The notes beneath the pieces are model-generated. The model worked only from the letters and a program-made list of their open reading frames with translations. It was not told the origin of the DNA and did no database searches. From IMG/VR virus record IMGVR_UViG_3300009132_000026, positions 1 through 26,440 of that record: a DNA stretch of 26,440 nucleotides; one strand, written 5' to 3'. Source of the DNA: a virus. The position numbers were made by a program, and so were the translations under genes. Shown here piece after piece: positions 1 to 25,384 of this stretch. Every line of letters starts with the position of its first letter. The stretch's first letter is position 1.

Positions 1-683
1 GCATAGGCAGGTACTCTCATAGCTGTTATACCACCAGCATCTGCTTTGACTTGATATGATGGGTCACCAACAGCTACTCGTATTGTTTCTATAGCCATAT
101 TCGGATATACTTCCTCACCTATCTTCATAAGCAATGGTACTCGTCTTACAACACCATCAATTTCAGGAGCGGTATTAATAACACCAACACCTCCAGCACA
201 TTCAGCTAATTGAGGTAATGGACCAACCATACCGTCCCACTCAAAGAGATATGGAAGAGGGTCTCCTATCTTTGCCACACCTCTTGGCACTGGATTAGAT
301 ATTCTTTTTTGTGCTGTACCAACTTGAGCAATAACTGTGCCATACGTTAATGTTTCACAAAATGCATCATCACTACCAAACCTATCCTCTTCACTAAACA
401 ATATAGGCATAACAATAATACCTGTTTGTGCATTTCTTAATTGAAGTATAAGGTTAGCAAGTACATCACGGTCCCACGGCCATTGACCATGTTTCTCTAT
501 TGCTTGCTCATCTATGGTGACAATTGATATTGCTTGGGAAGGTGTTTTCTCTTCATTTTGAAGTACATAATCAAATGATTTGAGTCTAAGTATTTCTTTA
601 ACCCACGGGTCTTGAAGTCCAATATAGGTTAATGCTATAAGAGTAATAAATGCTATTGTCCAATGTGATAGTATTTTCTTCAT
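1..683 (-). CDS. CHASE2-domain protein, partial (C-terminus off the left edge)
   Basis: The first 227 codons are visible, from the ATG at 683-681 leftward. Residues about 8-23 are one hydrophobic segment (IAFITLIALTYIGL). The following region fits a CHASE2 extracytoplasmic sensor domain: SFDYVLQ, then ISIVTIDEQAIEKHGQWPWDRD, then IIVMPILFSEEDRFGSDDAF, the usual order of an IDE..G.WPW.R motif and an f.E....D motif. In bacteria CHASE2 normally precedes cyclases, kinases or extra membrane helices. Whatever follows here lies outside the window, so signalling output cannot be judged. It is the last visible gene of the leftward curli-like operon, right after a curlin-like gene and near a FecR gene, a partner often found with CHASE2. 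A TATAAATA box ends six bases before the ATG and there is no Shine-Dalgarno, so it may be translated from a leaderless late transcript. Confidence 0.85.
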   Translation of the reverse strand, partial: MKKILSHWTIAFITLIALTYIGLQDPWVKEILRLKSFDYVLQNEEKTPSQAISIVTIDEQAIEKHGQWPWDRDVLANLILQLRNAQTGIIVMPILFSEEDRFGSDDAFCETLTYGTVIAQVGTAQKRISNPVPRGVAKIGDPLPYLFEWDGMVGPLPQLAECAGGVGVINTAPEIDGVVRRVPLLMKIGEEVYPNMAIETIRVAVGDPSYQVKADAGGITAMRVPAY

Positions 684-688
684 TATGC

Positions 689-696
689 TATTTATA
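689..696 (-). promoter_or_regulatory. T4-type late promoter for the CHASE2 gene
   Basis: The minus strand reads TATAAATA-GCATA-ATG. The box is a perfect match to the T4 late consensus and lies in the 13-base gap between the curlin-like stop (697-699) and the CHASE2 ATG. With T4 spacing (box at -13 to -6) the start site would be the A of the ATG. Confidence 0.65.
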
Positions 697-1491
697 CTAA
701 TTTTGTGTAACAGTAATTGAGCAACCAGAAGAGGTCTGGCAATTATTTGTTAGTGTGTATGTTTGATTTGAATTACTATTTTGTGTTAGGTCTAGGTCTG
801 TTGTGTAAGAGCCTGTTAAATCTATTGTAGCTGTATGAGCACCATCTCCTTTTTGTACCATAGACTGCTCTCCATTATCGGTTCGTACTGTGAAATGTAA
901 TGTCTTATTTCCATTACCTTTTTGTTTAAAGAAGATATCGTTATTATCGCCTCCATAAGTATAAATTCTGGCATAATGGTCTGCATTACCTGTACCCGTC
1001 TCTTGAGAACCTTTTAAGTCTGTGTTGCCGGAATGAATATCTAAATCAATTGTATGACCACCATATTCAGCTGTTGTAGATTCCTCACAAACTGAATCAT
1101 TTGCATCGACATATGTTTTACCTTGACAAAGGTCTATAGTATTATTACTACTTGGTATATGAAATCCTATTTTATTTGCATCTGAACCTGTTGTATTATA
1201 TTGCATTAGCTTGAGCGTATTATTTGAACCATCTAAGTCACCACCCCAACCAGCACCAGACCCCCAATAAGAAACCCAGCTTATTGTATTATTCTCACCT
1301 ATTTGGTCAATGTCAATATTATTACTGTCATGTGATACAGATAAGCGAACTTCATTATCATCACCATCTTGTAAGATATTAAGTGTGAAACTATTGCTTG
1401 TACCAACTTGGTCAATGTATATTTCATTAGCCGCAAATACAGGTAGGCACAATAGTAAAATACTACTGACTTTGAATAATGTTAATTTCAC
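697..1491 (-). CDS. Curlin-like repeat protein 2, secreted
   Basis: A 264-residue protein with a clear signal peptide (MKLTLFKVSSILLLCLPVFA) followed by curlin-type motifs. Examples are IDQVGTSN (26-33), LQDGDDN (40-46), IDQIGENN (61-68), and later QKGNGN and QKGDG, the Q-x-G-x-x-N pattern typical of CsgA/CsgB repeats. The N-terminus resembles that of the other curlin-like gene in this operon (N-x-IY-xx-Q-x-G-x-S and LQDGD-x-N), so they are paralogues. The repeats are irregular, as in a minor or nucleator subunit, but that role is inferred. It contains two cysteine pairs (C122/C135 and C251/C257), unlike E. coli CsgA. The start is GTG at 1491-1489, preceded by AGGAGG eight bases upstream, and lies 29 bases inside the end of the FecR gene, suggesting coupled translation. 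Confidence 0.78.
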   Translation of the reverse strand: MKLTLFKVSSILLLCLPVFAANEIYIDQVGTSNSFTLNILQDGDDNEVRLSVSHDSNNIDIDQIGENNTISWVSYWGSGAGWGGDLDGSNNTLKLMQYNTTGSDANKIGFHIPSSNNTIDLCQGKTYVDANDSVCEESTTAEYGGHTIDLDIHSGNTDLKGSQETGTGNADHYARIYTYGGDNNDIFFKQKGNGNKTLHFTVRTDNGEQSMVQKGDGAHTATIDLTGSYTTDLDLTQNSNSNQTYTLTNNCQTSSGCSITVTQN

Positions 1492-2575
1492 TTTCCGTTC
1501 CTCCTAATTCAAAATCTATTAGTTCAAAATCTCCAACTTGTATATTCATTAAATAACTATTTGCCTGTTCGAGCCTTAATTCTATAACACTACCACTTGC
1601 TGCTTCCCTGTGCCAATACCATTCTGGGTCCTCATCTAATATTGTGATTCCTGTTTCTTTATCTGTACCTAATACTATATCACCCTTTGCTTTTTTCTTT
1701 TTATCAAGTTTATCACCTAATTGTAATGCTAATTGTAAGTTCAATTGGTCTAAAATATTGCCTAAAAAGTTTTGTGCTAAAAAATCTCTGTCAAGTTGAC
1801 CTACACTATCATCTTCATCTAATTCTTCAAGATAGTCTTCCATTGATTTATCTAATTCATCAAATGCTAGTAAATCAACATCAAGCGCGGTAGCAGTCTT
1901 TTGGAACTCTTCTTCTCTTACTGCCTCTTCAATCTCTCTTGGTGGTGAAAAAATTAATAGGTTAGTAATAAAATTTTCTTCTAAACTTAAAATAATAGGC
2001 TTTAATGGTGGACTACTAATTGTATCTACAACCGTGGCCTGAAAAGCTGTATTCATAATAACCTGACCAGCATCAGACTCAACCGTTATTTCACCAACAA
2101 AGCAATAACCATTTGTATCACATGATGGCAATAGAATAATAGTTGAAGAACCAATCTCGTCTACCGTCATCGTAAAATCTGTACCACGGACACCAATTGT
2201 TGCAGTTGGTGTCTTTATTTGTACTTCGGTTGGGCTGGTCTTTGCAATCTGGCCAGATGCATATCGTATTGTACCTAGCGCTGCTTTAAGTGATAACGAA
2301 CCTGTCTTTGTATTTGGGTCATAAACAAATTCGTCAATAATTAATTTAGAATGTTCAGTTACATCAACTCTCGTATCATCAATAAACCCAATAGCAACTT
2401 TACCCTTACCAGTTTTAACAGTATTATATGAAAATACATCTAAATCTTTTTCAGCCTCAACGTCTTCACCATCTTGTTCAATAACAGCATTACCTGTATG
2501 TAGTATAACATCACCAATTACATCATCAGCAAATGCATTAAAAGTTAAGCACCATAATATAATGAAGAGTCGCAC
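1463..2575 (-). CDS. FecR-domain periplasmic protein
   Basis: A 370-residue protein with an N-terminal signal peptide (MRLFIILWCLTFNAFA, cut before DD) and a FecR domain over about residues 20-140. The diagnostic stretch is TPTATIGVRGTDF at 122-134, preceded by GKVAIGFIDDTRVDV and LGTIRYASGQI. The remainder (about 210-370) is acidic and helical with a lysine run (DKKKKAKGD), then a short beta-rich tail. FecR domains without a sigma/anti-sigma partner are common in secreted bacterial proteins and often occur near CHASE2. Here the gene lies between two curlin-like genes, so a role in fibre anchoring or surface sensing is a reasonable guess, not more. The start is GTG at 2575, one base after the upstream stop. 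It carries a C152/C158 pair. No TonB or sigma factor gene is visible. Confidence 0.85.
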   Translation of the reverse strand: MRLFIILWCLTFNAFADDVIGDVILHTGNAVIEQDGEDVEAEKDLDVFSYNTVKTGKGKVAIGFIDDTRVDVTEHSKLIIDEFVYDPNTKTGSLSLKAALGTIRYASGQIAKTSPTEVQIKTPTATIGVRGTDFTMTVDEIGSSTIILLPSCDTNGYCFVGEITVESDAGQVIMNTAFQATVVDTISSPPLKPIILSLEENFITNLLIFSPPREIEEAVREEEFQKTATALDVDLLAFDELDKSMEDYLEELDEDDSVGQLDRDFLAQNFLGNILDQLNLQLALQLGDKLDKKKKAKGDIVLGTDKETGITILDEDPEWYWHREAASGSVIELRLEQANSYLMNIQVGDFELIDFELGGTESEINIIQSQ

Positions 2576-2576
2576 A

Positions 2577-3692
2577 TTAATCTCGTTGAATAATATCTAC
2601 ATTTGCCGAAGAACCATTTACTTCTAAATCTATTATATCACCACTTCCACCAGTTTGTAATATAACATAATCTGCACTAGCACCATCATGGTGTAATGAA
2701 AGCGTACTCGCATTGTCTTGGTCGATATCAGCTGTGAAACTTGCTCCAGCAGCATCTATATGAACTGTACCTGTACTTGTTTGTTCAATACTAACATTCG
2801 CACTTGCACCATTCACATCTAAGTTAATAGTACCTGTACTTGTTTGGTCAATATCATATGAACCACCAGCACCAGCTAGACCAGATGAAGTTTGTCCAAG
2901 AATGGTTCCATCAGTATTAAATGTTGCATGACCTGTTTGGTTAATATTAATTGTCTTCACAGCAGAGGCTGTACTTCCAGTAGATGTTACAGTTATACTA
3001 CCACCAGCGGTCTGGTTAATATCAATATTTTGTGAATCACCTGTTGTTGTTACAGTTGCTATATTGTCATAGTTACCTGATTGGACTACATCCACATCGG
3101 CTGTGATACCAGTTTGGGTCATAATTAAAGTATGACCATTGACATCTCCATTGTCATCAATGTTAATTAAATAGTTATTTGTATCTCCATCAATTGTTAA
3201 TCTTAATATTGCACTTGTACCATCAATTGTGGCAGCAACAACAGTACTATCCGTACCTGAGGCACCAACAATATCAATATCAGCGCTATCACCTGACTTT
3301 GACGAGGTAAGACCTACATCAATATCAATGTCTTGTGAGTTACCTGCAAAGGTGATTGTAGCATGAACACTATCACATCCTGAAGTAGCATCGGCGGAAT
3401 CACAATTGAAATCAATATTGTTACTATTACCTGTTGTACTCCACACACCGGTAAAGCTATCACCATGAATATCAAAAGTAATTATATTACTATTACCGAC
3501 TTGGTCAATATTAAAGTTTGTTGCTGAACCACTAGCGGTAGATGCAGTTGTACTATTGCCAATCATATTGCCATCACCGTCTTGTAGCACATCAAATACT
3601 AATGAAGCGCCAGCTTGCGTTACATAAATCTTATTTGTTGCCATTACTGACAAGCTCATCATTACCATAACAAAGAAACTGAAAATTTTCAA
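2577..3692 (-). CDS. Curlin-like repeat protein 1, secreted, major-subunit candidate
   Basis: A 371-residue protein with a signal peptide (residues 1-18, ending SVMA) and a long Ser/Thr/Gly/Asn/Asp-rich beta-repeat body with almost no Lys or Arg. Early curlin motifs are LQDGDGN and IDQVGNSN. Towards the C-terminus Gln residues form a ladder: Q204, Q227, Q252, Q283, Q304, Q325, Q346, Q369. Those at 283-346 are spaced exactly 21 residues apart and flanked by repeats such as QTSTGT and NGASAN. Curlin repeats are normally 19-23 residues with conserved Gln and Asn, so a stacked beta-solenoid amyloid subunit is the best reading. CsgG lies immediately upstream and would export it. The start is TTG at 3692, six bases after AAGGAG, which lies inside the csgG end. 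A C97/C106 pair is present. It is acidic and much longer than E. coli CsgA (151 residues). Confidence 0.8.
   Translation of the reverse strand: MKIFSFFVMVMMSLSVMATNKIYVTQAGASLVFDVLQDGDGNMIGNSTTASTASGSATNFNIDQVGNSNIITFDIHGDSFTGVWSTTGNSNNIDFNCDSADATSGCDSVHATITFAGNSQDIDIDVGLTSSKSGDSADIDIVGASGTDSTVVAATIDGTSAILRLTIDGDTNNYLINIDDNGDVNGHTLIMTQTGITADVDVVQSGNYDNIATVTTTGDSQNIDINQTAGGSITVTSTGSTASAVKTININQTGHATFNTDGTILGQTSSGLAGAGGSYDIDQTSTGTINLDVNGASANVSIEQTSTGTVHIDAAGASFTADIDQDNASTLSLHHDGASADYVILQTGGSGDIIDLEVNGSSANVDIIQRD
2588..2846 (-). repeat. Tandem 63-base coding repeats in curlin-like gene 1
   Basis: Imperfect units encode the 21-residue Gln-to-Gln repeats (Q283 to Q346), followed by a longer 23-residue unit to Q369. 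Two units keep nucleotide identity in the plus-strand string gtacctgtacttgttt, at 2767 and again 63 bases on at 2830. That suggests recent duplication of a unit within the gene. Confidence 0.7.
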
Positions 3693-3693
3693 A

Positions 3694-4599
3694 TTATTCT
3701 CCTTGTTTTTCTTGATTTGGATGTTCTACCCAACTGTCTAGTGGTATACTAGAATCTATTATATTTATAGTTTGAACCTCTTCTTTTGGTAGTTCCCACT
3801 CCCATAAGCCTAATTCTTTACCTTCATATACCATTTGCAATACTGCATATTCTATTGCAGTACGGATTGCATAATTCACTGGCTCATTAGCCGCATTACC
3901 AGATTCTATCTCTAATGCTTTTGTACCTAAATCTAAAAACCTAAATACATCTGCACCATTGCTAGTACTCGCAATTGTTTTTGAGACCTGTACAGTTAAT
4001 AAAATCTCTCCTGTTTGTACTCCAACAAGTCTTAATGAAACTGTCACTTGGTCTGTTCTATATTCTTCGGAAGCACCTAAACCAAAATATCTCATACCAG
4101 CACCACCAGAAGTTGTGTTAGTATCATAGCCAACAATGCCACCCTCTAATATTAGGCCGGCAAATAACATAGGTTGTAATGAATCTACTCCGGTCGCACC
4201 ATCATATAATTCCCTTGTACTTCTTATTAGTTGCCGCTCTTTAACTACGTTATCTAAACTTGCCCTTTCAACAACTGTAAACCAATCACCTCTGCTAACT
4301 GCCATCAATGCTTGTATAACCCAAACATCAGCTCCTTGTGAAACCGCTGTGGATAACCCAGTTTGTTTCCTTTGTCCTGTGACATCAGGAAATTTATAAA
4401 CAGCAACAGTAATCTTTACTGGATTACCATTACCATCTGTTGGTACGTTTATCAAGTCAGGCACTTCGTGTAATAATGTCTTAGTTGGTGTACCTTCTAT
4501 AAATGGCATATCACCTTGTATTGGTTCTGCCTTTTGATTCATACTACACGCGCCGACTAAGCACGATAATAAAGCCACTGCTAAATATTCCATATTCAT
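3694..4599 (-). CDS. csgG: CsgG family curli secretion pore lipoprotein
   Basis: A 301-residue protein matching CsgG along its length. It has a lipoprotein signal with lipobox VGAC (Cys18), then VAVYKFPDVTGQ, LSTAVSQGAD, ERQLIRSTRE, ILEGGIVGYDTNTTSGGAGMRYFGLGA and LVGVQTGEILLTVQVSKTI, with YEGKELGLWEW near the end. In E. coli CsgG forms a nonameric outer-membrane channel for curlin subunits. The two transmembrane-hairpin regions and the C-terminal helix look intact. The loop between TGQ and STAV, which in E. coli carries the constriction residues Y51, N55 and F56, is only RKQTGL (residues 77-82). That is three residues shorter and lacks all three side chains. The start is ATG at 4599; a second in-frame ATG at 4593 has a better-placed AGG and could be the true start. 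It lies between csgF and curlin-like gene 1. Confidence 0.92.
   Translation of the reverse strand: MNMEYLAVALLSCLVGACSMNQKAEPIQGDMPFIEGTPTKTLLHEVPDLINVPTDGNGNPVKITVAVYKFPDVTGQRKQTGLSTAVSQGADVWVIQALMAVSRGDWFTVVERASLDNVVKERQLIRSTRELYDGATGVDSLQPMLFAGLILEGGIVGYDTNTTSGGAGMRYFGLGASEEYRTDQVTVSLRLVGVQTGEILLTVQVSKTIASTSNGADVFRFLDLGTKALEIESGNAANEPVNYAIRTAIEYAVLQMVYEGKELGLWEWELPKEEVQTINIIDSSIPLDSWVEHPNQEKQGE
3762..3769 (-). promoter_or_regulatory. Possible internal late promoter within csgG
   Basis: A perfect TATAAATA on the minus strand, inside the last codons of csgG. It would start transcription near 3756 and give curlin-like gene 1 a leader of about 64 bases that includes its AAGGAG. A dedicated promoter for an abundant fibre subunit would make sense. 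At this AT content a few in-gene matches are expected by chance. Confidence 0.3.
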
Positions 4600-4606
4600 A
4601 ACCTAT

Positions 4607-5110
4607 TTAAAATTTAAAGTCTCCAACCGGTACTATTAATTGAGTTATACTACCAGCAGCATCAGTAACGGTTAATGTAATTGTTTCTGCTGTTGTATCT
4701 TTTGACCAAACAACCGTTGCACCATCAGGTAAAGTTGCACTACCACTTAATGGACATTGTTTATCTTTATCTGGAAGCGTCGCTTCAAGGTCAGGGTCAT
4801 CAGGGGTACAATTAGTACCAAACATATTGTCAACCATTTGTTTGGATAAGTTTGCAAAGATACGACTCTCAACGTTTGTTACAAACTTAGCAAGAGTTGT
4901 ATTTGCTTCTGCTCTAGCAGCTGCTTTTTCTGCCGCTGTTGCATCATCTTTTACTGCCTCTTTTCTTTGAAATTGCAATTGCTCAATTGATAACACATGA
5001 GTAGAATAACCTTGTCCACTAAAAGCTGGATTCTTAAAGCCAAAGGTTAATTCACTAGCATTACCAATCGTCGTCAGTATTATTGCTATTATTGCTATTA
5101 TTTTTTTCAC
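4607..5110 (-). CDS. csgF: CsgF family curli assembly factor
   Basis: A 167-residue protein with a signal peptide (MKKIIAIIAIILTTIGNA) followed by SELTFGFKNPAFSGQGY, the counterpart of the E. coli CsgF mature N-terminus TMTFQFRNPNFGGNP that inserts into the CsgG channel. The C-terminus, ITLTVTDAAGSITQLIVPVGDF, matches the CsgF end (LNVTDRKTGQTSTIQV). The middle (about 45-100) is an Ala/Glu-rich helix. In E. coli CsgF sits on the outer face of CsgG and couples secretion to nucleation. It is longer than E. coli CsgF (138), with a loop carrying C101 and C119. The start is GTG at 5110 with GGAG ten bases upstream. The first 50 bases overlap the end of the upstream membrane-protein gene, so the signal peptide is encoded in an overprinted region. 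The stop lies seven bases before csgG. Confidence 0.87.
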   Translation of the reverse strand: MKKIIAIIAIILTTIGNASELTFGFKNPAFSGQGYSTHVLSIEQLQFQRKEAVKDDATAAEKAAARAEANTTLAKFVTNVESRIFANLSKQMVDNMFGTNCTPDDPDLEATLPDKDKQCPLSGSATLPDGATVVWSKDTTAETITLTVTDAAGSITQLIVPVGDFKF

Positions 5111-5366
5111 GTCTGGCTTTCTCCTGTAATATTATATCCAACTTAGCATTAAGTCGAATTAAATCATTATCTAACATTCTAACTCTATCAATTAACGCAA
5201 TCAAAGTAAAATGACTTTTACCAATGACTGGGTCCACCTTTGTTGATACCCATGTCCATATAAAATATATAAAATAGGCCATTGCAAATGCAGCAATAAT
5301 GGGAAAACCATAATCGCTAATTAATGTACCAATTGTGGTTCCTTGTTCTACTACTACTTCATCCAT
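5061..5366 (-). CDS. Small membrane protein, paralogue of the 5662-5940 product
   Basis: A 101-residue protein with one N-terminal transmembrane segment (GFPIIAAFAMAYFIYFIWTW, about 20-39), an amphipathic helical region containing ALIDRVRMLDNDLIRLNAKLD, and a polar tail of Asn/Ser repeats ending TDDDW. It aligns without gaps over about 61 residues with the other small membrane protein of this operon, sharing GFPI, YF-x-Y, AL-xx-RV, LIR and K (about a third identical). One helix plus a charged amphipathic tail is an architecture shared with BhlA-type holin-like phage proteins, but there is no sequence motif to prove that. Its 3' end is dual-coding with the csgF signal peptide. The start is ATG at 5366, three bases after the upstream stop. 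Confidence 0.7.
   Translation of the reverse strand: MDEVVVEQGTTIGTLISDYGFPIIAAFAMAYFIYFIWTWVSTKVDPVIGKSHFTLIALIDRVRMLDNDLIRLNAKLDIILQEKARREKNNSNNSNNTDDDW
5079..5102 (-). repeat. Nine-base tandem repeat in a dual-coding overlap
   Basis: The minus strand carries AATAATAGC twice plus a partial third copy (AATAAT). One frame encodes the Asn-Asn-Ser tail of the small membrane protein. The other encodes the Ile-Ile-Ala hydrophobic core of the CsgF signal peptide. Confidence 0.85.
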
Positions 5367-5368
5367 AA

Positions 5369-5662
5369 TTAATTCTTCCCTATTCCAAATGCGCTACCTG
5401 TTAAAATAGCTCCAAAGGCCAAATGAAATAATCCACCACCCATAAGGGTAAATGGATTATGCTGACCTGTCAATTTTTTCATTAATTCTAATTGTATCAA
5501 TGGGTCTTCAACTGTATTAAGTATATCAATAAACATTGCTAAATCCGGTCTATTCAATCCATACCAGATAGGTACAAACATAAAGTCATAAAAACAAATA
5601 GCAAGATATAATATTAGCGCACTCCAGCGCCATCTCATTGTGCTTTTTTCCATCGCAGTCAT
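5369..5662 (-). CDS. Small membrane protein, holin-like candidate
   Basis: A 97-residue protein with two or three hydrophobic segments: WSALILYLAICFYDFMFVPIW (about 13-33) and FTLMGGGLFHLAFGAILTGSAFG (about 71-93), separated by a polar stretch with IDILNTVEDPLIQLELMKK. Size, multiple membrane spans and the FH-x3-GAILTG end recall phage holins of the GTA_holin_3TM type. This is a resemblance only, not a recognised family match. It lies between two mutually paralogous single-span proteins and shares their late transcription unit. It starts with ATG at 5662 overlapping the previous stop (TAATG), with AGGAGA five bases upstream. If it is the holin, the curli genes would be co-expressed with lysis. 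Confidence 0.65.
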   Translation of the reverse strand: MTAMEKSTMRWRWSALILYLAICFYDFMFVPIWYGLNRPDLAMFIDILNTVEDPLIQLELMKKLTGQHNPFTLMGGGLFHLAFGAILTGSAFGIGKN

Positions 5663-5940
5663 TAATCTCTCCTAGCATCTGTCTTACCATCAGCTCTTGC
5701 GATTCTATCAACGTCAGGTCTTATATTAAATGCCTGGCACATCTTTACATCAATCCTAATTAACTCACTATTCATTGTTTTAACCCTATTGTCAAGAGCT
5801 TGTGCAAACATTTTTTGTTGTTTAATATCATCTAACACACCATCTAATATAAAATTAAGTGTTAAATATACAAAATAACCTGCTGCTCCTGCTCCAACTA
5901 TAGGAAAACCTACTTCAGCAACTAAATCTAAATACTCCAA
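5662..5940 (-). CDS. Small membrane protein, first gene of the leftward late operon
   Basis: A 92-residue protein with one transmembrane segment (GFPIVGAGAAGYFVYLTLNFIL, about 11-32), then a charged helical region (ALDNRVKTMNSELIRIDVK) and a basic tail. It is paralogous to the 5061-5366 product. The start is inferred to be TTG at 5940-5938, because AGGAGA sits six bases upstream and a late promoter lies about 30 bases upstream. The open frame extends further, to an ATG at 6048, but that would cross both divergent promoters and the ferredoxin start, so it is unlikely. Function is unknown; a BhlA/holin-like or inner-membrane role is possible from its architecture. Confidence 0.68.
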   Translation of the reverse strand: MEYLDLVAEVGFPIVGAGAAGYFVYLTLNFILDGVLDDIKQQKMFAQALDNRVKTMNSELIRIDVKMCQAFNIRPDVDRIARADGKTDARRD

Positions 5941-5968
5941 ATCAATTCTCCTAATCTGTACATACCTA

Positions 5969-5976
5969 TATTTATA
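5969..5976 (-). promoter_or_regulatory. T4-type late promoter for the leftward curli-like operon
   Basis: A perfect TATAAATA on the minus strand, in the gap between the divergent genes. With T4 spacing transcription starts at about 5963, giving a 23-base leader that contains AGGAGA before the TTG at 5940. No other promoter or terminator was seen between here and csgG, so it probably drives the whole leftward cluster. Confidence 0.75.
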
Positions 5977-5977
5977 A

Positions 5978-6262
<285 letters not shown>

Positions 6263-6677: not shown

Positions 6678-6808
6678 TGGGAAGTAATTTAGGTTTAATA
6701 GGAATTGGTTTGGTTGGATTATTTGCTACATCAATGATTAAGTTTGTTGCTATTGCAGCCATAGCATGGGGTGCATATAAAGCATGGAAAGATTGGGGAG
6801 CGATGTAA
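6677..6808 (+). CDS. Tiny hydrophobic protein (43 aa)
   Basis: ATG at 6677 overlaps the previous stop (TAATG), with GGAG eight bases upstream. The 43 residues are almost entirely a hydrophobic helix pair (LGLIGIGLVGLFATSMIKFVAIAAIAWGAY, in two segments) ending KAWKDWGAM. Its stop overlaps the lipase ATG in the same TAATG fashion. The overlaps on both sides make it a credible gene. A small membrane peptide next to a lipase could belong to a lysis set, but this is only contextual. Confidence 0.6.
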   Translation: MGSNLGLIGIGLVGLFATSMIKFVAIAAIAWGAYKAWKDWGAM

Positions 6809-7563
6809 TGAGCATAAGTGATATGAATATAAAGCAGCAAAGTTTGCTTTTTGCTAAGCTTGCGGCTGATGCATACGGAGAAAAGAAAGCCGTAACAGCA
6901 CTTGCTAAGAAACATGGTTTTACTAAAACAAAATTTTATGATAATGGCGGTGCTCAAGCATATAGATTTGAGAGCAAAACCGATGTTGTTGTCGCATGTC
7001 GTGGCACACAACCTACAGAATTTAATGATTTAAAAGCAGACCTTAAAGCATTTCCCGTTAAATCAGAGACTGTTAGTAGAGTTCATAGGGGATTTAAGGC
7101 TGAGGTAGATGAGCTTTGGCCTATGGTAAAACCTGATATTGAGACAACTGATAAAAAATTATGGTTCTGTGGTCATTCACTTGGAGCTGCAATGGCTACA
7201 ATTATGGCTAGTAGGTGTCATTTAAGATGGGAATTTGCTAACGTAGAAGCTTTATTTACTTATGGTTCACCTAGAGTTGGGTGGCCTGCATACGTTAAGC
7301 ATTTAAAGCTTACTCATTATAGGTGGCAAAATAATAATGATATAGTCACAAGGGTACCTCTTAGGATTATGGGTTATAGGCATGATGGTCATTTAATGTA
7401 TATAAGACATGATGGTTCTATTGATGATGATGGTAAATTTAAATGGCATAGACGATTTAAAGACCGTATGAAAGGTATGTGGGGCGGTATAAAACATGGT
7501 AAAGTTGATAATTTTTCAGACCATGCAATGACTGAATATATCACACACTTAGAAAATTGGTAG
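6808..7563 (+). CDS. Class 3 lipase (alpha/beta hydrolase)
   Basis: A 251-residue class 3 lipase-like protein. It has the nucleophile elbow GHSLGAAMA with Ser124, the acid Asp178 in NNDIVTRVP, and the catalytic His239 in DHAMTEY. Upstream are VVVACRGTQPTEFNDLKADL, typical of the family's oxyanion region, and VHRGFKAEVDELW. It has no signal peptide. The ATG at 6808 is chosen over an in-frame ATG at 6784 because GGGGAG sits seven bases before it and it overlaps the previous stop. Class 3 lipases hydrolyse acylglycerols or phospholipids. In a late phage operon it could weaken host membranes at lysis or act on lipids after entry; I cannot tell which. Confidence 0.88.
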   Translation: MSISDMNIKQQSLLFAKLAADAYGEKKAVTALAKKHGFTKTKFYDNGGAQAYRFESKTDVVVACRGTQPTEFNDLKADLKAFPVKSETVSRVHRGFKAEVDELWPMVKPDIETTDKKLWFCGHSLGAAMATIMASRCHLRWEFANVEALFTYGSPRVGWPAYVKHLKLTHYRWQNNNDIVTRVPLRIMGYRHDGHLMYIRHDGSIDDDGKFKWHRRFKDRMKGMWGGIKHGKVDNFSDHAMTEYITHLENW

Positions 7564-9316: not shown

Positions 9317-9591
9317 TGAATAATTTTAAAGAGCATTTAGCTGAAGCTAGAATTGCTCCATCACCTGCAACGCAGAAAAAATTAACCAAGCCACTAGACC
9401 GAGCGGCAGGTGCAGCTTTAAAAAGAAGTTTAAATTTAGCTGTTGATGGTCTTGATGATTTAGCTTGGAAATTAGAATTTCAATATAAAGGAGTTGACCC
9501 TAAAGCAATAGCCAATTTAAAAGCTTTGCATAAGCAAGGTTTAAAAATGCAAAGGTCAGTTATAAGTGCAATTGACAAGGCGAAAACTTAA
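9316..9591 (+). CDS. Small probable head-packaged protein (91 aa)
   Basis: A 91-residue basic, helical protein beginning MNNFKEHLAEARIAP. LAE|A at 8-11 fits the T4 prohead protease consensus, and the F-K-E-H/F-L pattern resembles T4 internal-protein targeting sequences. The rest contains two helical stretches (LDRAAGAALKRSLNLAVDGLDDLAWKLEF and PKAIANLKALHKQG) with no known domain. The ATG overlaps the stop of the preceding probable head protein (TAATG). An internal head protein is inferred from the N-terminus and the neighbour. Confidence 0.6.
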   Translation: MNNFKEHLAEARIAPSPATQKKLTKPLDRAAGAALKRSLNLAVDGLDDLAWKLEFQYKGVDPKAIANLKALHKQGLKMQRSVISAIDKAKT

Positions 9592-10483
9592 ATGTGGTAT
9601 TATACTTTTAATAATGGCATCAACAATATCAACCCCAGCGGCAACTAATATTAATGTAGTAGCAACTACAGCTCAATACCCACAAAAATCAAATTTAAAA
9701 GAGCAACCTGGTTCTTGGTTAACCCAGGCTACTATATTAGTGTATGATGATATAGTAAGAGCTCAAGGTGTTAGGTTTACACATGGAATGACCCAAGCTG
9801 ATTATGATTTACTTAAAGAACCTTATATCTATGCTCAATTTGAAGGTAATGTAAAATGGTTTATGGATGAGTTAGTTGGTATGGAATCAGATTGGAAAAA
9901 GGATGCAGCAGCAGGTAGTACTACCGCTTATGGTTATGTGCAATTCACAGAAGCTAGTGTTGAAACTGCTGTACAATTATATATTAATCATTTAGATAGA
10001 TTTAATGCAAGAAGTAAAACTAGAGTTTGGAATACTAATTTGGGAACTATTGCAATCCCTGCATGGTTAAGAACATTAAGAGCAGCAATTAAAAATGGAA
10101 CATATGTTCATAAAGTAAATTTAGACTTTTTAAGTTATGACCAAGTATTAGCTTTAGCACTTATTCATATGCATGGAGAAAATGCAAAGGATTTTGAATT
10201 TATAAAAATGGGTAGAGGTGAGGTTGCTGCCGCAAAAGGAATTTATTTATCAGAACATTATAAAGAAACTAGTAAAAAACCAGCAACACCAGAAACATTA
10301 GAGAGATTAAATGTTACTAATGGAGGATTTTTTAAAATTCATTATGTTCAAGCAGTAAGCTTAACTCAAAAAGTAATTGAGCTTACACCAGCTGCCACTT
10401 TGGCTAAAGCTATTTTAGCTCAAATAAAAGATTCAAAGTATGCTAAGCATATAGAGACCGTCAAAGGGTGGTTTGGATGGTAA
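9566..10483 (+). CDS. Lysozyme-like transglycosylase, putative endolysin
   Basis: The central region is lysozyme-fold: GMESDWKKDAAAGSTTAYGYVQFT, where the Glu of MESDW is the likely catalytic acid and AYGYVQF is the G-x-x-Q motif of SLT-type muramidases. It would cleave peptidoglycan. The start is uncertain. A GTG at 9566 gives 305 residues with a credible signal peptide (RRK, then CGIILLIMAST, then STPA), with AAGG upstream. An ATG at 9614 gives 289 residues without it and has no ribosome site. The signal favours an exported endolysin; without it, it could be a virion-associated enzyme. The C-terminal part (about 200-305) has a second helical region with no motif I recognise. It is the last gene before the gp13 promoter. 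Confidence 0.68.
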   Translation: MQLTRRKLKCGIILLIMASTISTPAATNINVVATTAQYPQKSNLKEQPGSWLTQATILVYDDIVRAQGVRFTHGMTQADYDLLKEPYIYAQFEGNVKWFMDELVGMESDWKKDAAAGSTTAYGYVQFTEASVETAVQLYINHLDRFNARSKTRVWNTNLGTIAIPAWLRTLRAAIKNGTYVHKVNLDFLSYDQVLALALIHMHGENAKDFEFIKMGRGEVAAAKGIYLSEHYKETSKKPATPETLERLNVTNGGFFKIHYVQAVSLTQKVIELTPAATLAKAILAQIKDSKYAKHIETVKGWFGW

Positions 10484-23368: not shown

Positions 23369-23827
23369 ATGAGGGACTTGATAGAAAAATGGATTGACGA
23401 ATTTGTCTCAGTTCATAATGAAGACTATGGGCAAATACCTTGTCCATACGCTAGAGCTGCGCAAATTAAATATATAAAAACAGATAATATTGATTTGGAA
23501 TTAAAAAAGATATTAGATTGTGGCCTCTTACATGAGGTCATTTGCATATATACGGACACAAGAAATTATACCCCTGATGAGTTCCATGATAAAGTAATGG
23601 AATGGAATAATATGGCCATGAAAAAAGATTTGGTTGCTTTAGAAGACCACCCTGAAAGTGTAGAGATTATTAATGGTACAAAAATGAACTTTGGCTATTG
23701 TAGTTTAATATTAGTACAAAAGTTAAGTAAGTTAACCGCGGCTAGTAATATACTTAAGAAAAAAGGTTATTATGATAATTGGACCCAAGAAAATTTAGAT
23801 GAAGTGGTTACTTGGAGAGAGAAATGA
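23369..23827 (+). CDS. Hypothetical protein with CPYA motif (152 aa)
   Basis: A 152-residue soluble protein. Near the N-terminus it has WIDEFVSVHNEDYGQIPCPYARAAQIKYI, with a Cys-Pro-Tyr-Ala-x-x-Ala motif. Later it has VICIYTDTRNYTPDEFHDKVMEW and LVALEDHPESVEIINGTKMNFGYCSLILVQK. I have an impression of similar proteins in other marine myophages but know no function and recognise no domain. It overlaps the next gene by four bases (ATGA) and so belongs to the same unit as the GNAT-like and amidinotransferase genes. Confidence 0.72.
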   Translation: MRDLIEKWIDEFVSVHNEDYGQIPCPYARAAQIKYIKTDNIDLELKKILDCGLLHEVICIYTDTRNYTPDEFHDKVMEWNNMAMKKDLVALEDHPESVEIINGTKMNFGYCSLILVQKLSKLTAASNILKKKGYYDNWTQENLDEVVTWREK

Positions 23828-24297
23828 GTTACTCATATGCTAGAATAAACCTAGAGAAAACAAATTATAGGAAAATGAAAGGTGGTTGGAAATTTAGTTC
23901 GTTAGCATCGCCTGAGGAATATAATAAAATATATTATAAATATTGTAACTATCATAAATTTAATAGTGTCATGCCTATATTTGATATTGAATATGAAGAG
24001 AATGACATTATAGAATATTATGATGGCTTTAACTTAGTAGCTTTTAGTATGATAGGAAGATATGATGAACACAATGCTGAATGCTATCAATTTGCTTGGG
24101 ACTATGACAACCCTAAGTTGCATTTAGGTATAAAGAGTTTACGTAATGAGTGTGCGATATATAAAGAACTAGGATTTAAATATCTTTATATTGGTGGAGC
24201 AGATGAATATAAACAAAAAATAAATGGTTTTGAAGTGATGGGACCAGTAAATTGGATTGAAGATAGATGGTCAATAGATGGATTTGAAAAAATATAA
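23824..24297 (+). CDS. GNAT-fold protein resembling arginyl-tRNA-protein transferase C-domain
   Basis: A 157-residue protein. The region LVAFSMIGRYDEHNAECYQFAWDYDNPKLHLGIKSLRNECAIYKELGFKYLYIGG follows the pattern of the ATE/Bpt aminoacyltransferase C-terminal domain. That pattern is a strand, then a D-P..slG...l..ei..akelG..Y.YlG motif. YYKYCNYHKF upstream may match the Y..Y...RH region. The N-terminal Cys-containing ATE domain is missing, so arginyl transfer to proteins is not assured; it may transfer another acyl or aminoacyl group. The start at ATG 23824 overlaps the previous stop, with GGAG upstream. The end overlaps the amidinotransferase by 20 bases. The family call is by eye only. Confidence 0.55.
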   Translation: MSYSYARINLEKTNYRKMKGGWKFSSLASPEEYNKIYYKYCNYHKFNSVMPIFDIEYEENDIIEYYDGFNLVAFSMIGRYDEHNAECYQFAWDYDNPKLHLGIKSLRNECAIYKELGFKYLYIGGADEYKQKINGFEVMGPVNWIEDRWSIDGFEKI

Positions 24298-25384
24298 AGT
24301 AACTAAAGCTAACTCATGGAATGGTTGGGACCCTTTAAAGCAAGTAATCCTTGGTAATGTATTTGACCCAGATTTTTTTGAGGATATTCAAGACCCTAAG
24401 CTTAGAGATTTATTACAAAGATTATTATATGAAACCCATGAAGACTTAATGGGTATTAAAAAAACCTTAGAGGACTTAGGCGTTGAGGTAATACAACCAC
24501 CAAGAAATACTATAGCGAGTTATGGAGAAATTGATAATTCAAATAAATTTAGTGGTATTACAGAAGCTATTAATACTGACTGGGAAGGAAAGGTACGAGG
24601 GTTACCTAAACCATGCCTTATGCCAAGAGATTATTATGTTACCCTTGGTGATAAAGTATTATTTACTGGATTTTTACATGAGAAATCAAAGGCTCATTTT
24701 ATGTTTGAGCCTGGTGTTGTTGATTATTGGGATAATAAAGAATTAATTAATAGAGAGAATGGTGAACTATCTAATGATTTTTGGGCACCTCAACTTATAC
24801 GATTAGGCAATAGACTTATTATTGACCAAGAGGATTATAGTAATCTTGCTGAAAAAGTCTTAGAAAGATATCCAATATTTAAAGGTAGCAAAATAGCAGT
24901 GGGAGGACATACCGATGGTTCTATGAATTTGCCAAAACCAGGATTGGTTGTTAGTGGTCCGTGGATACCTAAAGAAACTTTTAAAGATACATTACCTGGT
25001 TGGGATGTCCTACATATAAAGAATCCAAATTATTATGGAAATGAATGGAAGGATAGTTGGTGGGATGAGAGAAATCTTACTAGAGGTAGATGGTGGCACC
25101 CTGAAGCTAAATCAAATCCAGATTTAGTTAACTATGTAGATAAGTGGTTAAATGAATGGGTTGGTTATGCAGAAGAAACTATGTTTGAAGTCAATATGCT
25201 TTCAATATCTGAAGAAGTTATATTAAGTTTAAACTATCATAAAGACGTCCATGATAAATTAAAACAACATGGAATAGAACCTATATATTGTAGGTTTAGG
25301 CATAGAAACTTTTGGGACGGTGGATTGCATTGTTTAACATTAGATACTGTTAGAGAAGGTGGTATGCAAGATTATTTTAAATAA
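24278..25384 (+). CDS. Amidinotransferase-family enzyme
   Basis: A 368-residue enzyme of the glycine/inosamine amidinotransferase and arginine deiminase superfamily. Catalytic candidates are Cys352 in GGLHCLTLDT, His211 and Asp213 in VGGHTDGSMN, and Asp118 in MPRDYYVTLGDKVLF. The N-terminus NSWNGWDPLKQVILGNV and the strongly conserved GGLHC-T-D end are typical of amidinotransferases. It probably moves an amidino group from arginine to an amine acceptor, or hydrolyses a guanidino compound; the acceptor is unknown. Coupled to the GNAT/ATE-like gene by a 20-base overlap, which hints at a shared small-molecule or modification pathway. It is unusual for a phage morphogenesis region. Confidence 0.85.
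   Translation: MDLKKYKVTKANSWNGWDPLKQVILGNVFDPDFFEDIQDPKLRDLLQRLLYETHEDLMGIKKTLEDLGVEVIQPPRNTIASYGEIDNSNKFSGITEAINTDWEGKVRGLPKPCLMPRDYYVTLGDKVLFTGFLHEKSKAHFMFEPGVVDYWDNKELINRENGELSNDFWAPQLIRLGNRLIIDQEDYSNLAEKVLERYPIFKGSKIAVGGHTDGSMNLPKPGLVVSGPWIPKETFKDTLPGWDVLHIKNPNYYGNEWKDSWWDERNLTRGRWWHPEAKSNPDLVNYVDKWLNEWVGYAEETMFEVNMLSISEEVILSLNYHKDVHDKLKQHGIEPIYCRFRHRNFWDGGLHCLTLDTVREGGMQDYFK

Follow-up and report, generated by a model that had tools for sequence, protein, structure and literature searches.

Type VIII secretion (curli) modules have been published for SAR11 and OM43 phages (PMC7029224, PMC9004378 and, most fully, PMC9599517). A csgFG cluster was reported in pelagimyophages, where "sibling capture" was suggested (PMC7029224), and phage Melnitz carries csgFG, for which a role as lysis pore was proposed (PMC9004378). 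The gene order HK-CsgF-CsgG-CsgA/B-FecR-CsgA/B-AC (HK, histidine kinase; AC, adenylate cyclase) was published in 2022 for podophages and myophages, with the organisations in each lineage given, according to its legend, in Fig. 4A of PMC9599517. According to the same paper, the cassette is common among phages infecting abundant marine bacteria, and the hosts are devoid of curli. Here, we analysed a cassette of this type in the IMG/VR virus record IMGVR_UViG_3300009132_000026. The window, i.e. the complete stretch of DNA analysed, comprises 26,440 nt and is the whole viral contig, probably a genome fragment; its plus strand carries T4-like head and tail genes. An earlier note on this DNA had called the curli cluster itself not new, in agreement with the three papers, and had singled out its coupling to FecR and CHASE2. 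This coupling is retained in relatives, as described below, and was itself published in 2022 (PMC9599517). The points that appear to be new are a bacterial operon of the same content, a curlin-type end of FecR, a fixed spacing of late promoter motifs, and the missing host receptor for the cyclase product; all four are computational.

The curli block consists of nine tightly packed open reading frames (ORFs) on the minus strand between positions 3 and 5940, with spacings of -50 to +13 nt (Table 1), and these calls agree with the nine genes noted earlier. The order a-b-CsgF-CsgG-curlin-FecR-curlin-CHASE2/AC is common to the window and the pelagiphage module (PMC9599517; HTVC008M; Melnitz). The window differs from that module in that the block adjoins the head-gene cluster in divergent orientation, contains an additional 97-aa ORF, and encodes a curlin-like protein 1 of 371 aa compared with 228 aa in HTVC008M. 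With csgBAC-csgDEFG of E. coli the window has CsgG, CsgF and two curlin-type subunits in common, whereas the phage set has no CsgE (seven records) and includes FecR and AC. Family searches with the nine window proteins gave no match to CsgC, CsgD or CsgE; the earlier note had likewise stated that CsgE and CsgC are missing.

In our preferred reading, to which we assign about an even chance, the block encodes a late fibre exporter whose FecR protein is a fibre-end partner feeding the cyclase. The phage-borne type VIII secretion cassette would be switched on with the late genes and would form an outer-membrane pore of CsgG and CsgF, through which two curlin-like beta-solenoid proteins would be exported. 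FecR, rather than acting as an iron or anti-sigma regulator, would enter the envelope carrying a C-terminal curlin-type strand, and for this reason it would most likely dock on the curlin fibre or cap it, in a CsgB-like manner. From there it could signal the state of the fibre or of export to the inner-membrane cyclase, through the periplasmic CHASE2 domain of this enzyme. As to the use to the phage, our guess is that adhesive fibres on the dying cell, or on what is left of it, would hold nearby hosts or progeny. Because the hosts are devoid of curli (PMC9599517), infected cells would gain from the cassette a surface function that they did not have before.

The FecR-domain protein of the window matched PF04773 (6.2e-9), and its only hydrophobic 19-residue stretch above threshold spans residues 3-21. 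Regulators of the FecIR type have a cytoplasmic sigma-binding N-terminus ahead of a transmembrane segment. Since the sole hydrophobic stretch is located at the extreme N-terminus, the phage protein is, unlike anti-sigma FecR, probably exported and resident in the envelope. The candidate function of an iron or anti-sigma regulator was rejected on the basis of this hydropathy profile and the lack of any sigma-factor match among the nine window proteins.

The 78 distinct complete FecR sequences from phages all terminate with [SNTGD]-x-[ILVM]-x-[ILV]-x-Q, within 5 residues of the C-terminus. Related sequences are not independent: clustering of 76 sequences gave seven clusters under 70% identity, and the motif is present at the ends of all seven. 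An [IV]x[IV]xQ end was also found in 102 of 132 curlins, compared with 0/92 CsgG, 0/90 CsgF and 1/50 cyclases. The heptad fits the published curlin kernel N-x-psi-x-psi-x-Q (PMC10192328), of which E. coli CsgA has five copies; the window FecR has a single copy, at its end. In an alignment of 44 FecR proteins, including two bacterial ones with 34-35% identity, positions 364 (I) and 368 (Q) were invariant and position 366 was I or V, with positions 365, 367 and 369 variable; residues 364-369 thus display what looks like the in-out pattern of a strand. Among contigs from bacterial genomes, the kernel end was present in all three complete FecR proteins encoded beside csgFG (L146, L147 and the phage-like L143), and in that of the phage-like L144, where the upstream csgFG side falls off the locus. 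Bacterial FecR proteins away from csgFG, whether paired with a CHASE2 cyclase or not, differ from the phage proteins in this respect: 78 of 82 had no curlin-type end, and the remaining four had it in another context (ATGVVVGQ). These 82 are complete ORFs from loci with no csgF or csgG match, some of which are short. We found no description of the end motif in the open-access literature. Because FecR ends in a fibre-type strand, contact with the fibre is suggested, and we infer that FecR may contribute a strand to the curlin fibre as cap, nucleator or anchor.

A set of the same kind was found in two bacterial genomes. In a Caulobacteraceae metagenome-assembled genome (MAG; L147), csgF, csgG, two curlin genes, fecR and CHASE2-AC are consecutive and flanked by ordinary metabolic genes, namely those for methylmalonyl-CoA mutase, acyl-CoA dehydrogenase and amidohydrolase. 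A gene resembling cyclic-nucleotide phosphodiesterases, below equivalog cut-offs, is located upstream. A second Caulobacteraceae MAG (L146) has the six genes in identical order. Both operons resemble the phage set in gene content, in a FecR ending in the curlin kernel, and in their sister position in the CsgG and AC trees; they differ in that both curlin genes precede fecR. The trees comprised 20 CsgG and 34 cyclase sequences. In both, the 13 rows from phages clustered together (support 99/96 and 100/99, respectively), with the two Caulobacteraceae as neighbours. The midpoint root was used for drawing only, the window genes, of which the cyclase is cut, were represented by those of L004 (CsgG 93% identical), and long branches were flagged among the bacterial sequences, three in CsgG and two in AC. 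The cassette may have been acquired as a unit from a bacterial curli-cyclase operon like these two or may share an ancestor with it; transfer from phage to bacterium is also a possible direction.

The arrangement looks rare in bacteria. CsgF scored above cut-off in 6 of 385 sampled genomes of the class, and in the five besides the query genome no FecR or AC was found within 17-18 kb around CsgF. With the FecR profile, 27 of the 385 genomes matched at E ≤ 1e-25, with a full-length match only in the query genome, whose FecR is part of the profile; within the family of the query, matches came from 2 of 149 genomes, namely the two Caulobacteraceae MAGs. A bacterial operon combining curli genes with FecR and AC was not found described in the open-access literature. 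Pairs of FecR and CHASE2 cyclase have been reported in other bacteria, such as Campylobacterota (PMC9239204), and a FecR-domain gene lay within 3 kb of a CHASE2 cyclase in 21 of 75 bacterial loci devoid of csgFG. These pairs share with the phage set the pairing as such; they gave no csgF or csgG match, with curlins outside the scan. The closest working model for how the phage set could act, by analogy, is that of Sinorhizobium, where the outer-membrane barrel NsrA activates CHASE2 cyclases (PMC13001267). Taken together, the operon of the Caulobacteraceae and the terminal motif of FecR make signalling from curli to cyclic nucleotides testable in a concrete and cheap manner.

Conservation of the module was assessed with two viral scans, seeded with CsgG (best 80 of 186 loci) and FecR (best 80 of at least 550), which share some loci. 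Among the 80 CsgG-seeded loci, FecR was present in all 38 with at least 3 kb beyond CsgG. The 20 contigs with at least 6.5 kb beyond CsgG, which were not dereplicated, all encoded FecR and the cyclase, and 18 of them two curlins. This count was preferred to the 45/45 obtained for FecR when FecR-seeded contigs were mixed in. FecR and CHASE2 are thus retained beside csgFG in all informative CsgG-seeded relatives. With curlin-like 1 predicted as a beta-solenoid (see below), neither of the outcomes named in the earlier note as speaking against its reading was observed. Gene order is nearly invariant; exceptions are loci with the cyclase placed first (L016, L017, L020, L022), with gene a between csgF and csgG (L044, L047, L049, L052, L055, L056, L083), or with the a/b pair or the cyclase relocated and inverted (L120, L142). 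The rearranged loci L016, L017, L020, L022, L120 and L142 suggest that the module behaves as three separate units, {a,b}, {csgF-csgG-curlin-fecR-curlin} and {AC}. Compared with a near relative, the ratio of nonsynonymous to synonymous substitution rates was 0.14 for CsgG, 0.13 and 0.12 for the curlins, 0.17 for FecR, 0.08 for CHASE2, 0.34 for CsgF and 0.18 for gene b, values that place these genes under purifying selection.

The match of the window CsgG to its Pfam family covers residues 62-264 of 301, a profile built from three phage CsgG proteins matched solved CsgG (3.3e-59), and a lipobox-like cysteine was present in 89 of 92 distinct phage CsgG proteins. For CsgF, the Pfam match covers residues 4-101 of 167 and phrog_35372 spans 4-167; the family assignments of the earlier note hold, and its match of CsgF along the whole length holds for the PHROG and not for the Pfam family. 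In E. coli, 27 residues of CsgF line the CsgG channel (PMC7304575). The segment F.NP.F, present in 84 of 90 distinct phage CsgF proteins, falls within this region as placed by alignment to 6l7a CsgF (E 0.2), with FKNPAFSG over FRNPNFGG. Its conservation makes it less plausible that CsgF of the phages has lost its fit to CsgG. A conserved curli export set is supported.

Of 79 contigs, 63 had gene a and/or gene b no further than 2.5 kb from csgF and 16 had neither. The 97-aa membrane protein was matched in 10 of 143 scanned sequences, a count that includes the window itself and repeated loci from a single contig. The best phage-holin matches of the small window proteins were to phrog_4898 (E 0.033 and 0.2), and YvrJ was matched in 3 of 25 relatives (best 0.059), so the label "holin-like" of the earlier note is not supported. 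No kinase family was matched by any of 25 small-protein members (79-115 aa), and matches to solved structures were weak and mostly to coiled coils. The small proteins thus have no convincing family among kinases or holins; the label histidine kinase given in PMC9599517 to the gene before csgF, assuming that the genes correspond, was rejected since the 25 members show no kinase core.

These small proteins bear on a reading that combines the proposal of PMC9004378 with that of the earlier note: CsgG, with or without CsgF, would be a pinholin- or secretin-like pore for lysis or depolarisation, with the small transmembrane proteins as holins and the curlins secondary. The late motifs, the position of one-transmembrane proteins ahead of csgF and the weak holin and YvrJ similarities are in its favour. 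However, curlins, FecR and AC are retained under purifying selection, the channel-lining motif of CsgF is intact, and the 16 contigs mentioned lack genes a and b near csgF. In addition, CsgG is an outer-membrane protein, whereas holins act in the inner membrane. We consider this pore reading improbable; of the link to lysis made earlier, the late timing is supported, and the connection to holins amounts to a weak resemblance.

The T4-type late promoter motif TATAAATA occurs at three sites on the minus strand of the window (Table 1). On both strands 12 copies were counted (9 on the plus strand), compared with a shuffle mean of 5.0, and none of 100 shuffles reached 12. The single T4 late promoter claimed for the block did not survive, as a single-promoter operon is ruled out by the three module-strand sites and the recurring internal sites in relatives. 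Across 64 dereplicated contigs, 96 motifs were on the module strand and 10 on the other, and first-order Markov shuffles, which are not exact dinucleotide shuffles, gave a mean of 37.3 and a maximum of 48. This total excess (96 versus a maximum of 48) is modest, and the strong evidence is the fixed spacing of 5 nt. Motifs within 150 nt of an ORF start were found for csgF (37/58), gene a (20/46), the cyclase (8/50), curlin 1 (8/61) and curlin 2 (3/49), and for none of the gene b (0/46), csgG (0/62) and fecR (0/58) starts. Exactly 5 nt separated motif and start codon at 36 of 38 measured csgF sites, and the same spacing was present at 7 of 8 cyclase sites. The set of sites varies between relatives, and the csgF-proximal site is missing from the window. 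Strand bias and fixed spacing in relatives support late-gene control with very short leaders and thus the late timing proposed earlier. In the window, a divergent late-promoter pair, made up of the copies at 5969-5976 (-) and 6004-6011 (+), separates the curli block from a ferredoxin gene.

The late motifs point to a function towards the end of infection. Genes for exclusion are usually expected early. This expectation is at odds with a further reading, already proposed in PMC9599517, in which the fibres would remodel the surface of the infected cell and coat it against superinfection or re-adsorption; the presence of a surface export set and its late timing agree with it, and we regard it as unlikely.

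The putative secreted proteins themselves are less well defined. Curlin-like protein 2 matched Curlin_rpt at 0.01, below the cut-off, and curlin-like protein 1 had no Pfam curlin match. In the alignment of curlin-like 1, 11 of 36 proteins matched Curlin_rpt at E ≤ 0.1 (best 8.6e-6). The AlphaFold2 model of curlin-like 1 is all-beta (predicted local distance difference test score, pLDDT, 82.7; predicted template modelling score 0.81) and is a predicted beta-solenoid. It gave no Foldseek hit at E ≤ 0.001, and the sequence matched none of the solved structures; VIA-align superimposed the model on the beta-helix adhesin EtpA with Z 22.6 over 299 residues (root mean square deviation 2.8). Apart from the heptads of curlin-like 2 (Table 1), one kernel heptad is present in curlin-like 1. 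Both proteins, like FecR, start with a hydrophobic, signal-like stretch, which is what stands, by hydropathy alone, of the signal peptides noted for the two curlin-like proteins. The curlin identity of the window's own proteins is weak, with curlin-like 1 supported by its orthologues and the predicted structure, and we infer that the cassette may secrete amyloid fibres.

The CHASE2 protein of the window runs off the contig end and contains the CHASE2 domain only. In the homologues of HTVC008M and Melnitz, the domain continues into an adenylate/guanylate cyclase domain. The gene had been listed as CHASE2; the domain was recovered, and, judged by these homologues, it is the start of a truncated CHASE2-adenylate cyclase rather than a standalone protein. 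The residues D,D,K,S,N,R, presumably including the two metal-binding Asp and the functional Lys, Asn and Arg, are present in 47 of the 51 distinct phage cyclases that have a catalytic domain. The Melnitz-like cyclases of L003, L098, L117 and L142 have S to D and N to S, possibly with a change of activity or substrate.

Several results weigh against the reading of a fibre exporter with a FecR partner feeding the cyclase. Clumping was not seen with Melnitz (PMC9004378). CsgE was found in none of the seven phage records tested, though also in none of seven bacterial genomes. The bodies of the FecR proteins contain the heptad 93 times in 28,623 residues (about 0.3% of positions), a strict heptad is missing from the E. 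coli nucleator CsgB, which ends in AIRVTQR, and the C-terminal 85 residues of FecR showed no homology to curlin profiles, with the last seven residues alone matching. The FecR structure model was of low confidence (pLDDT 47.4) and was not used. The small transmembrane genes are not accounted for. In 4 of the 51 cyclases, Melnitz included, the residues are D,D,K,D,S,R, so that two catalytic-site residues are altered. Finally, the apparent host family was represented by 99 genomes, which may be incomplete; 4 of them had cyclic nucleoside monophosphate (cNMP)-binding matches, compared with 10 of 14 control genomes and none of the seven phage records. The apparent host family is that of the MAG holding L145 (uncultured Candidatus Pelagibacter) and was not derived from the window virus. 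The two Caulobacteraceae genomes had 6 and 7 cNMP-binding domain matches. A cyclase-family match was found in 3 of the 99 genomes, two above the cut-off; these two were also matched by the profile of the phage cyclases and may represent phage sequence within the MAGs. The phage cyclase is thus conserved with no obvious receptor, and its output would act either elsewhere or via a receptor of another kind.

The near-absence of a cNMP receptor also bears on nutrient or iron uptake, one option in PMC9599517, by which an open CsgG pore would serve uptake, FecR would be the iron regulator and HK/AC would regulate the system. The FecR domain and the absence of CsgE from seven phage records are compatible with it. 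However, the location of the hydrophobic stretch leaves no cytoplasmic N-terminal domain in FecR, the small proteins yielded no kinase match, and late timing contradicts feeding of replication, so that we regard uptake as very improbable. The preferred reading can be extended to a bolder one, which we consider doubtful: FecR would be a new curli subunit, an envelope sensor whose curlin-strand tail plugs the growing end or base of the fibre and relays fibre status to the CHASE2 cyclase. A bacterial operon would then link curli assembly to a second messenger, and phages would have taken over this operon intact and would express it late, in cells seemingly devoid of a receptor for the signal.

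Table 1. Features of the curli block and late promoter motifs in the window
Feature	Position	Strand	Evidence or remark
Gene a, 92-aa one-transmembrane protein, TTG start, phrog_18771	5662..5940	-	PHROG 5.3e-30
97-aa membrane protein, no family match	5369..5662	-	ORF call
Gene b, 101-aa one-transmembrane protein, phrog_18771 (family of gene a)	5061..5366	-	PHROG 8e-27
CsgF with N-terminal FKNPAFSG segment	4607..5110	-	PF10614 2.1e-11
CsgG outer-membrane pore	3694..4599	-	PF03783 9.3e-48
Curlin-like protein 1, 371 aa, predicted beta-solenoid	2577..3692	-	AlphaFold2 model, orthologue matches
FecR-domain protein, probably exported, C-terminal curlin kernel SEINIIQ at residues 362-368	1463..2575	-	
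Curlin-like protein 2, 264 aa, five curlin-kernel heptads	697..1491	-	Heptad scan
CHASE2 half of CHASE2-adenylate cyclase, cut by contig end	3..683	-	PF05226 3.6e-27
T4-type late promoter motif TATAAATA	5969..5976	-	28 nt before gene a
TATAAATA within csgG 3' end	3762..3769	-	69 nt before curlin-like protein 1
TATAAATA	689..696	-	5 nt before start codon of CHASE2/cyclase gene

A close relative with a 44.7-kb contig (L007) is collinear with window positions 7-5325 at 86% DNA identity, and in L004 and L035 the block is likewise divergent from the lipase side on the plus strand. An assembly chimera is therefore unlikely. The ferredoxin gene next to the curli block is located at 5990-6262 (Fer4_7 1e-6). 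A class 3 lipase is encoded amid small proteins at 6784-7563 (+; Lipase_3 8.5e-18, phrog_21992) and is a possible envelope-exit enzyme. The 305-aa protein encoded at 9566-10483 (+) contains a stretch that looks like a lytic transglycosylase by eye and had no Pfam or PHROG match. At 23812-25384 (+), a 161-aa protein (ATE_C 5.8e-5, just under the cut-off) is followed by a 368-aa protein, which had no Pfam match and appears amidinotransferase-like by eye.

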